From IMG/VR virus record IMGVR_UViG_3300027782_000071, positions 1-64,000 of that record: a stretch of 64,000 nucleotides of DNA. One strand, given 5' to 3'. Of this stretch, positions 19,571-22,201 are shown piece by piece (position 1 is the first letter of the stretch; every line of letters starts with the position of its first letter). The position numbers and the translations under genes are program-made. This stretch comes from a virus. Under the pieces are notes generated by a model. The model was not told the origin of the DNA, did not search any database, and worked only from the letters and a program-made list of their open reading frames with translations.

Positions 19571-21313
19571 TTACATTACCACATTATAATTTAACTGAGA
19601 ATACAAGATATAAAAATTATCAGGGTTTGCTGAATTTATCAATGGAACATCAGTCATACTTTCACCAGTACTTGGAAAAACTTTCTGTGATTTTTGTGGA
19701 GATTGTCCAGATGATGTGACGATAACATTTGGTTTTGCTTCGGGCAAATTACCTACATTTGGAACTGGTTTTGGTATATTTTGAACTTGAGCTGGTTGTA
19801 TATTTAATTTTTTCTCATTTGATTGAGTGGGTGAAGTTACTTCTGGAATATTTTGTTCATTTGTTTTAGACTCTACCTCTAATTTTTGTTCAGATTGTTT
19901 ACTATCAAATGAATTTTCGATACGCTTAAATTCTGGATTTGATGTGTCAATATTGAAAGTATAATTACCAACTCCAGCAGTCATTGGTGTTTGTGGAGTA
20001 GATTTAATTTCAGGTTGTGTTGGTGCTGGTGAAGGTGTTGCTGAATTAATCTTTGGTTGTGTTGCTGTTACTGATGGTGCAGCTGCTGGTGAAGGTGTTG
20101 CTGAATTAATCTTTGGTTGTGTTGCTGTTACTGATGGTGCAGCTGCTGGTGAAGGTGTTGATTTTTGTGAATTAATTTTTGGTTTTGCTGTTTCTGATGA
20201 TTTTTCTGCTGGTTTTGGTGCATTTGCTCCTGTAAGAAGGTCAGTACCTTTTCCTGCAAGTATAAATCCTGCAGCTCCACCAGCAATCATTCCTGGAAGT
20301 TTTAATGGTCCTGGCAATTTTGCCCCCATCTGAGCGCCTTTTTCTGCCCCATAAAGACTAGCAGCAGTTCCTGCTCCCGCCTGAACATTTGTTTGTCCCT
20401 CATTCTTTCTTTCTATAAATTCGGTAGCACCCAGAACAACATTAACGGCACCTTTAGCAACACCCTTAAGTACATTACCAGTATTTTTTAATAATCCACT
20501 AGTGGCACCCTCTGTTGCACCTTTAGTGGCGGCCGTTGTTGCGCCTTTAGCAGCACCACCACTAAAAATACTTTTTGCCGTAGATGTAACTGCTTTAATT
20601 GGAGCGGTAATAATTTTTCCAATCAATCCTGTAATTTTTGCAACAACACTTCCAAGTGTTTTAATAATTAAATTAAATCCACCTTTAATTGTAAAAAGAA
20701 TTCCAGCGGCAATACCAAGATGTTTAATAATATTATTTTTAATCTCAGTAAGTTTACTCCTATCTCCTTGCTGCTTAGCATCAAAAAATTTAACTAACTC
20801 ATTTGTTAGCCACCCAGCAAAAAGAAATGTGAGTGCCTTTTGAACATTACCAAAAATATCTTGAACTTTTGGTGTAAGTTTTTGAACTGGTATAAGAACT
20901 GCAGATTGTATTTTCTGCTCTATCTCATTTTCTTTACCAATTCTTATTTCCTGTTCTGCATATCTTCTTTGTCTTTCTGCTTCTGATATTAATCTAGATT
21001 GGTCGGAAGCACCATCTTGCTGAATTAATACTGCAATTTTTTCTAATCCAGAATTTAAAGTTACAACTTGCTGATTGAGATTTTTAACCTGAGTATCAAG
21101 TGCAATTAAAGATTGTTGATTTGTTTGTGCAAGTTGTAAATTTTGATTATTATTCTCTACATATTGGGATATAAAAGTAGTATCTCCCCTAAAGGATGAA
21201 CTTGATATTTTTGTACTATTTAAAATTGCCTGCCTTACTTCTTTGGACAGCGGAGATCCTGTAATTGGATCTACTCCATTACTAGCAACTGATTTTAAAT
21301 CAACTTCCGCCAT
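19571..21313 (-). CDS. Tail tape-measure-like protein (580 aa)
   Basis: The N-terminal 50-140 region is a heptad-rich coiled coil (many Gln and Leu). A hydrophobic region follows (about 165-250: ALTFLFAGWLTNELV, then ILFTIKGGFNLIIKTLGSVV). Next come an Ala/Gly-rich stretch (about 255-375) and a Pro/Thr/Ser-rich tail with a duplicated 20-aa unit. Coiled coil plus membrane-active helices is the usual composition of tape-measure proteins, which set tail length and may be ejected. It is short for that role, so length may be shared with the adjacent 656-aa protein. The ATG overlaps the end of the small gp26-fusion frame by 14 nt, the normal place for a tape-measure gene after its assembly chaperones. 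Confidence 0.65.
   Translation of the reverse strand: MAEVDLKSVASNGVDPITGSPLSKEVRQAILNSTKISSSSFRGDTTFISQYVENNNQNLQLAQTNQQSLIALDTQVKNLNQQVVTLNSGLEKIAVLIQQDGASDQSRLISEAERQRRYAEQEIRIGKENEIEQKIQSAVLIPVQKLTPKVQDIFGNVQKALTFLFAGWLTNELVKFFDAKQQGDRSKLTEIKNNIIKHLGIAAGILFTIKGGFNLIIKTLGSVVAKITGLIGKIITAPIKAVTSTAKSIFSGGAAKGATTAATKGATEGATSGLLKNTGNVLKGVAKGAVNVVLGATEFIERKNEGQTNVQAGAGTAASLYGAEKGAQMGAKLPGPLKLPGMIAGGAAGFILAGKGTDLLTGANAPKPAEKSSETAKPKINSQKSTPSPAAAPSVTATQPKINSATPSPAAAPSVTATQPKINSATPSPAPTQPEIKSTPQTPMTAGVGNYTFNIDTSNPEFKRIENSFDSKQSEQKLEVESKTNEQNIPEVTSPTQSNEKKLNIQPAQVQNIPKPVPNVGNLPEAKPNVIVTSSGQSPQKSQKVFPSTGESMTDVPLINSANPDNFYILYSQLNYNVVM
20031..20160 (-). repeat. 60-bp tandem repeat within the tape-measure-like gene
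   Basis: Positions 20041-20100 and 20101-20160 are identical, and the 10 bases before 20041 match the end of each unit (about 2.2 copies). The unit codes a Pro/Ala/Thr-rich 20-residue block containing TATQPKINS. Confidence 0.95.
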
Positions 21314-21479
21314 TTGATTGATTCTTCAGATTTTCTTCTTCGATGTATTGTTGGAGAAGAGATACATAAATTTCTCTTTCCCAAGGTATCATATTTTCTA
21401 ACTCCGTCAAAGAGTATTTATGATGTTGAATCAAAGCAAAGTTCGTTTTATAGTATGACGCAAGATCTTCATGCGACAT
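21300..21479 (-). CDS. Small tail-assembly chaperone segment, probably made as a gp26 frameshift fusion (59 aa from ATG)
   Basis: The frame reads MSHEDLASYYKTNFALIQHH and ends with a helical segment containing ENMIPWEREIYVSLLQQY and acidic residues. Its ATG (21479) lies 3 nt after the gp26 stop and lacks a clear ribosome-binding site. The reading frame is open upstream through CGC-TTA-GGT to the slippery heptamer in gp26, so a -1 frameshift would join it to gp26 as a 300-aa protein. Location just before the tape-measure gene matches the T domain of G/GT-type tail assembly chaperones. Free translation from the ATG by coupling is the alternative. Confidence 0.8.
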   Translation of the reverse strand: MSHEDLASYYKTNFALIQHHKYSLTELENMIPWEREIYVSLLQQYIEEENLKNQSNGGS

Positions 21480-21494
21480 ACCTAAGCGAAAAAA
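21453..21494 (-). promoter_or_regulatory. Programmed -1 ribosomal frameshift signal in gp26
   Basis: Minus-strand slippery heptamer T_TTT_TTC (21494-21488) is in the gp26 frame (AGT TTT TTC GCT TAG). After a 6-nt spacer comes a hairpin: GTATG (21481-21477) pairs with CATAC (21457-21453) and CGCA (21475-21472) with TGCG (21462-21459), with one T-T mismatch and a 9-nt loop. Slipping one base back reads CGC TTA GGT ATG and enters the 59-aa frame. Confidence 0.85.
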
Positions 21495-22201
21495 CTTGAC
21501 AATCCCTCTAAAACAACTGTGCTTTCAACATTAGTATTTGGATTTTTGAGACTAACAGTATGAGAAAGTTTTGGCATAGTCTCAAAGAATTTTTCAATTT
21601 CTTTAAATTGATTAGAAGTTAATTGCTCCAAAAATTGAATTAGATCTTTGTTGGAAAAATCACTTGCATTCCAAGACTCTTCTTCGCTATAAACTTGCTC
21701 AATGCATGAACAGATCAGGTCAAAAGTATCATCAACACTAACATCATTAGTATTGGAAAAATTACTTTTAATAAATTCCTGTATAGATGGATACTTCATT
21801 CTCATTGTCAAAGCATCGTCCAATTTAATATCCCGAGAATGTTGATCACTAACTTCAACTTTAATTTCGTCAAGATTGATACTTACTGGTACTTTTGTTA
21901 CACCATCATCTGGGCAAGTAATCAAAACATTTACAGTTTCTCCTACAGATTTTCCACGAATATTTAAAAATAGATATTCAATATCAAATGTGGATAGTTT
22001 TTCAATTTTGATTCCTCTTGTAATCAAACAGTTTGAAATTACATTTTTAACAGCATCTGCAATTTGCTTGGAATCTTCACTTTCCATTGCAATGATAAGA
22101 ATTTTTTCTTCCTTTACAAGAAATGGTCTATATTTAATTGTTTTTTTAATTGAAGGAATTTCCAACTCATATGTTGGTGTAGAGATTGTTGGTAAAGGCA
22201 T
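21482..22201 (-). CDS. gp26: gp26-like baseplate hub assembly protein / tail chaperone (239 aa)
   Basis: The protein begins MPLPTISTPTYELEIPS and continues with a KYRPFLVKEEKILIIAMESED segment, then an all-helical C-terminal half with a segment ending ETMPKLSHTV. This pattern is that of T4 gp26/gp51-family baseplate hub assembly proteins (T4 gp26 is 208 aa). It acts during baseplate hub assembly. The last codons overlap a frameshift site, so both a 239-aa form and a 300-aa fusion are likely, as in G and GT of lambda. A CTAAATA late-promoter motif lies just upstream at 22227-22233. Confidence 0.8.
   Translation of the reverse strand: MPLPTISTPTYELEIPSIKKTIKYRPFLVKEEKILIIAMESEDSKQIADAVKNVISNCLITRGIKIEKLSTFDIEYLFLNIRGKSVGETVNVLITCPDDGVTKVPVSINLDEIKVEVSDQHSRDIKLDDALTMRMKYPSIQEFIKSNFSNTNDVSVDDTFDLICSCIEQVYSEEESWNASDFSNKDLIQFLEQLTSNQFKEIEKFFETMPKLSHTVSLKNPNTNVESTVVLEGLSSFFA

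Follow-up and report, generated by a model that had tools for sequence, protein, structure and literature searches.

In 2022, Vladimirov, Gautam and Davidson reportedly found frameshifting to be conserved in several groups of T4-like phages, with T4 using genes 26 and 51. The relevant passage of a 2016 review describes frameshifting between lambda-type G and T as widely conserved 'except T4', and the ratio of short to long product as crucial for lambda tail assembly (Atkins et al. 2016, PMC5009743). The PRFect paper (PMC10885494) cites Vladimirov 2022 in connection with T4-like phages whose short and long genes are separate, and the paper on phage Adele (PMC12846349) does so for poly-T slip sites of TAC-N genes in T4-like phages. 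To judge from these citing passages, a short and a long tail-assembly chaperone have already been proposed in print for this group of phages.

Here, we analyzed gene 26 in a 64,000-nucleotide stretch of viral DNA (the window; IMG/VR virus record IMGVR_UViG_3300027782_000071, positions 1 to 64,000). A first reading made from the sequence alone (the sequence-only reading) had proposed a -1 frameshift joining gp26 to a small downstream frame, and did not recall such an event as established for the gp26 locus of T4-like cyanophages. Its main idea is not new, since Vladimirov 2022 is cited for T4-like phages; for the virus of the window and its clade the proposal is well supported. What is added here is an upstream Shine-Dalgarno-like GAGGG element and, within that clade, the compensatory changes seen in the hairpin. 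Taken together, gene 26 of this T4-like virus, a relative of cyanobacterial viruses, very probably encodes two tail-assembly chaperones, the longer by a -1 slip at T_TTT_TTC. This reading as a frameshift with a G/GT-like pair of products accounts best for the heptamer, its phase, the open -1 frame, the losses of the downstream ATG and the homology to T4 gp51.

Slippery heptamer at the 3' end of gene 26

Features of the locus are collected in Table 1. Read on the minus strand, gp26 ends GGA TTG TCA AGT TTT TTC GCT TAG, and an in-frame heptamer of the form X_XXY_YYZ precedes the 0-frame stop. The sequence-only reading had placed this T_TTT_TTC two codons before the stop; the heptamer is there (21494-21488) and close to the stop, with the count loose, as a single codon (GCT) intervenes. 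A -1 slip would lead through FF-R-L-G into the 59-aa frame; 238 + 62 residues make a predicted 300-aa product that terminates at 21300, which is the fusion already deduced in the sequence-only reading.

Table 1. Features of the gene 26 locus, in window coordinates
Feature	Position	Strand	Description or basis
Gene 26, short form	21482..22201 (stop included)	minus	239 aa; PF12322 / phrog_150
GAGGGA, Shine-Dalgarno-like	21503..21508	minus	ends 8 nt before heptamer; conservation, codon bias
Slippery heptamer T_TTT_TTC	21488..21494	minus	gp26 frame
Short-form stop TAG	21482..21484	minus	sequence
-1 extension (predicted C-terminal domain of long form)	21300..21488	minus	62 codons and stop; phrog_634; homology to the C-terminal part of T4 gp51
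Small-frame ATG	21477..21479	minus	absent in 29/182 heptamer-bearing relatives
Stem-loop	21452..21482	minus	starts 5 nt past heptamer; z, covariation
Next gene	19571..21313	minus	580 aa, coiled coil at the N-terminus; positional candidate for the tape measure

To examine the prevalence of this arrangement, relatives of gp26 were collected by protein similarity, never via the motif, from viral contigs near the window (the 80 top-ranked of at least 599 relatives), six further queries (one of them with the best 80 of 99 relatives retained) and 16 named phages. With these two selections, the survey is centred on cyanophages. The phiW-14 query returned only phiW-14 itself, and the SRB7757 query found no relative in the viral contigs. 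The 193 loci obtained, the window among them, include near-copies, with phiW-14 (L087, L115) and Ah1 (L093, L116) each present twice; L187 and L201, which break off ahead of the stop codon, were removed, leaving 191. Kept outside the 193 were L081, L119-L128 (T4-type gp51) and the repeat fetches L098-L102, and one named phage record (L085) carries no annotation. Protein alignment A4 was used; A3 was set aside, as its distant short fragments showed low identity (20-27%) and were judged misplaced.

Conservation of the heptamer, which the sequence-only reading had suggested checking, was evident: T_TTT_TTC was present in 182 of the 191 readable gp26 3' ends, near-copies included, and in 79 of the 80 loci nearest to the window among at least 599 relatives. 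Conservation is to be read from 182/191, because the 110 loci dereplicated at 90% were chosen among T_TTT_TTC-bearing loci only. Elsewhere in these 110 genes, the heptamer occurred in frame at none of 25,798 codon positions; given the amino acids, codon usage predicts T|TTT|TTC in approximately 14% of cases. The codon before TTT TTC was AGT in 38, TCT in 30, GAT in 19, GCT in 13 and AAT in 10 loci, suggesting that the residue is free to vary while its last base stays T.

Nine of the 191 loci lack T_TTT_TTC (L017, L090, L202-L204, L208, L086, L089 and L092). Four of them carry T_TTT_TTT (L202-L204, L208) and one T_TTT_TTG (L090), and no recognised slippery heptamer was found at the gp26 3' end of the Ackermannviridae-like L086, L089 and L092. 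Relatives without a slip site, which the sequence-only reading had named as evidence against itself, do exist in this one corner. These three are the Vibrio phages K355, YC and Kuja, in which the small domain is retained in the -1 frame. At the stop of L089 and L086 the sequence reads TAATG, possibly a sign of coupled starts. The distance to the stop also varies, the heptamer lying three codons ahead of it in L208 and directly before it, with no codon between, in the S-N03/S-B68 clade (L083, L084, L103-L114).

A run of T at the junction could also act in transcription, RNA polymerase slipping on it to produce mixed mRNAs, some of which would encode the long form in one frame. Slippage on T runs is known in general, and in L202-L204 and L208 the run reaches seven or eight T. 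However, it is exactly six T in 182 of the 182 heptamer loci (preceded by G in 71, C in 68 and A in 43), which is short for polymerase slippage, and the anti-Shine-Dalgarno-pairing element and the stem-loop that flank it would be left unexplained, making this reading scarcely credible.

The small frame as extension or separate gene

The -1 frame continues as a conserved coding frame through the heptamer and stays open for 56-68 codons past it in all 176 heptamer loci whose small-frame stop lies within the retrieved DNA; the +1 frame is open for a median of 6 and a maximum of 29 codons. The small frame might alternatively be a gene of its own, with no fusion made and a translationally coupled start at an ATG two bases past the gp26 stop. 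Such an ATG is present in 133 of the 182 heptamer loci, which is probably why annotators call the small frame a gene: it is a separate CDS in 12 of the 15 annotated named records (T4 excluded), is unlisted in three (L086, L093 and L096) and is joined to gp26 in none, so that the long protein is missing from all 15. The overlapping TAATG of L089, which has no heptamer, also fits a coupled gene.

This reading does not account for the heptamer or its phase, and a separately started small gene is unlikely in the 29 of 182 heptamer loci with no ATG near the stop, 21 of which also lack GTG and TTG. There, a different residue, in many cases Leu or Phe, takes the place of the Met, and the domain continues. 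On a gp26 tree of 113 loci (with several long branches and the deep part unsure), the missing ATG requires 8 changes, and well-supported branches carry at least 5 of these. Since it is absent in these 29 relatives, the small-frame ATG of the window is probably an internal Met of the long form and nothing more. The apparent tiny gp51 of cyanophages would then be explained as, probably, the end of a longer chaperone.

The sequence-only reading had pointed instead to the lack of a ribosome site at this ATG. The fact holds, with a strong Shine-Dalgarno sequence at 0 of 59 small-frame ATGs, but the argument drawn from it is weak, because most gp26 starts (8 of 61 with a strong one) and downstream starts (3 of 59) also have none. 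It was set aside, and the repeated loss of the ATG is relied on in its place.

Elements upstream and downstream of the heptamer

A further element, missed in the sequence-only reading, was found upstream of the heptamer. Predicted pairing with the anti-Shine-Dalgarno sequence along gp26 showed a sharp peak where the 8-nt window ended 7-9 nt ahead of the heptamer; the mean duplex energy there was -7.9, compared with 0.25 for the background region 40-149 nt upstream, whose lowest position was -2.3. The element reads GAG GGN, coding for Glu-Gly. In the window's clade, GAG encodes this Glu in 55 of the 61 loci, compared with 29% at other sites in these genes (binomial 2e-23); for other clades, the figures are 30 of 39 loci and 39% (binomial 1e-6); both binomial values are too small, because related loci are not independent. 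GAGG was used by 84 of the 99 loci with Glu-Gly at the element and by 15 of 41 other Glu-Gly pairs, and resampled synonymous codons paired more weakly in 96 of the 110 loci (mean -5.65 vs -7.98). Judged from codon usage, the Shine-Dalgarno-like GAGGG element is maintained through codon choice; 7 of the 110 loci have a weak form of it or none.

These observations bear on the coupled-gene alternative as well. A Shine-Dalgarno-like sequence near the end of a gene is, according to the passage concerned in PMC5009743, common before coupled genes. In the window, however, GAGGGA ends 23 nt before the small-frame ATG, too far for a normal start. Some purine-rich form also persists in the 29 loci without ATG (GAAGGA in 12; below threshold in L096 and L199), so the element hardly serves the start of the small frame. 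A coupled separate gene is thus very unlikely, and extension of gp26 by frameshifting is the reading followed below.

Stimulatory Shine-Dalgarno spacing is given as 9-14 nt in the relevant section of PMC5009743, and PMC4066793 describes Shine-Dalgarno-like sequences 6-17 nt before the motif and a shift at U_UU.U_UU.C in E. coli. Among the best-ranked open-licence literature matches, no title concerned an upstream Shine-Dalgarno-like element at the gp26 locus, and the matches listed for internal Shine-Dalgarno elements included no title on a T4-like phage. The element is a concrete candidate for control of the short-to-long ratio.

Downstream, the sequence-only reading had described a 6-nt spacer and a hairpin of 5 + 4 bp with one mismatch. 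The computed fold fits that description, its energy having z = -3.4 relative to dinucleotide shuffles; the stem comprises GGTATG, one mismatch, and CGCA with two inner pairs, and the spacer is 5 nt, or 6 if the outer G-U pair is left uncounted. Over the 110 loci, the mean z was -2.8, with 92 loci below -1 and 18 at or above it, including L018 (from the group without ATG) and L205-L207. No outstanding stem was seen in L205-L207, L085 and L087, nor in L018 and L058 of the window's own clade, and other clades have different stems. The downstream structure is therefore a property of the window and most of its clade and is not general.

The hairpin of the window's clade shows compensatory changes. 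In the 61-sequence clade alignment, the 11-pair stem was 91.8% paired, a figure biased toward the stem because the stem was drawn from one of the aligned sequences, while slid controls reached 25-47%. The covariation score and the number of double-change cells exceeded all 500 shuffles; the number of pairs with a double change (2) was reached by 11 of the 500, and the number of further pair types (7) by 100. The main signal came from one pair, columns 21-35 (U-A 28, G-C 25, A-U 3, G-U 1, other 3). The codon pairs behind it are GCT/GAG 27, GCG/GCG 22 and GCA/GTG 3 (n = 61), so that a mostly synonymous third base follows an amino-acid change. Stem pair 15-41 fails in 21 of 60 sequences, and the RNAalifold consensus was weak (6 pairs, -3.19 kcal/mol). 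On well-supported branches, two independent pairs could be drawn, too few for a test, and both agree.

The two proposed products and comparison with known systems

Homology to T4 gp26 and gp51 was observed alongside the phase and conservation of the sequence elements. The gp26 of the window matches PF12322 and phrog_150. The small frame matches phrog_634, 'baseplate hub assembly catalyst' (2.8e-28), and also the far C-terminus of phrog_150 (8.6e-7), so the phrog_150 profile spans both parts. T4 gp26 contains PF12322 alone, and T4 gp51, a single ORF, contains PF12322 over residues 1-201 and phrog_634 over residues 147-246. By these domain contents, the short form (26) and the long form (51) are separate genes in T4, divergent and on opposite strands. 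Short and long products sharing an N-terminal part are thus indicated by gene content, and most phages examined appear to make both forms from gene 26. Only one PF12322 gene was found in the window's own 74-kb record, and in each of four contigs searched for a second, short one. T4 gp26 (L081:4803-5429) ends ...EFFELL, its two Phe near the end encoded by TTC TTT, which is not slippery and is a possible relic.

In L017 (3001-3891), a single reading frame (TCT TTT TGG TTA GGA ATG) runs through gp26 and the small domain, fusing them, and no second PF12322 gene was found in its 236-kb contig, which is one of the four above; the fusion may be a natural variant, a mutant or a sequencing error. The AlphaFold model of this fusion had a mean pLDDT of 92.5. 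Among 1000 chains, VIA-align ranked the HK97 tail assembly chaperone 2ob9 best (Z 7.9; 84 residues, within 1-86 of the model), followed by 3fgx (7.7), 5ir0 (5.2) and then unrelated rows at 3.9; a best Z below 8 may reflect no more than a common arrangement. Foldseek against the PDB gave no match for the model at E 0.001 or better, and no real match emerged when PDB sequences were searched with the gp26/fusion profile. A Foldseek-type comparison with predicted viral structures yielded 59 matches at E 0.001 or better, and among the matches listed, many named ones are annotated as baseplate hub proteins. Comparison of T4 gp28 with the gp26 alignment found nothing. In the tables of PMC3004832, T4 gp26 and gp51 are given as hub assembly chaperones, with gp51 absent from the particle; gp26 is also tabled as a possible hub part, with genetic support for a hub location, which counts against a pure chaperone, since such a protein would not sit in the hub.

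The small frame had been said to lie just before the tape-measure gene. A long coiled-coil ORF does follow, 425-918 aa among complete relatives, but homology to T4 gp29 was not found: a profile of 34 downstream ORFs compared with gp29 gave a probability of 0.9%, no detectable homology. By its place and coiled coil, the next gene is a plausible tape-measure candidate. Some relatives have a lytic domain at the end of this gene (endolysin/chitinase matches in L083).

From these elements we infer slippage, at some frequency, together with a role for each stimulator and a chaperone function. Most ribosomes would read the 239-aa gp26 and stop. Some would pause on T_TTT_TTC, tethered by pairing between their anti-Shine-Dalgarno sequence and the GAGGGA located 8 nt upstream, with the stem-loop that starts 5 nt downstream blocking their way; the two tRNA-Phe would then slip back by one base, and reading would continue in the -1 frame. 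The outcome would be a 300-aa protein with an extra domain equivalent to the C-terminal one of T4 gp51. On the model of lambda gpG/gpGT, binding to the tape-measure protein would fall to the short form, and the long form would use its extra domain to recruit tail-tube subunits.

On balance, we lean toward a broader view, in which the gp26 frameshift of T4-like phages is of the dnaX type, stimulated by anti-Shine-Dalgarno pairing and conserved in cyanophages as well as in several phages that infect other bacteria, with the same two proteins encoded by separate genes (26 and 51) in T4 and the slip site lost or replaced in some groups. The locus allows frameshifting, in-frame fusion and two separate genes to be compared as answers to one need.

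Compared with lambda G/GT, gp26 belongs to a protein family that differs by sequence, and its function is assigned by inference; the lambda slip sequence also differs from T_TTT_TTC. The T4-like tail assembly chaperones of Vladimirov 2022 share the genes (26 and 51) and a short and a long form with this locus, and the citation from phage Adele adds poly-T slip sites. T4 itself has two proteins with the domain contents of the short and the long form, encoded by two divergent genes that need no frameshift. In its control elements, the locus resembles E. coli dnaX, for which the relevant parts of PMC3711429 and PMC5009743 describe a Shine-Dalgarno-like element, a slippery heptamer and a hairpin; the heptamer is A_AAA_AAG there and T_TTT_TTC at gp26, and the shift at gp26, unlike that of dnaX, would lengthen the product.
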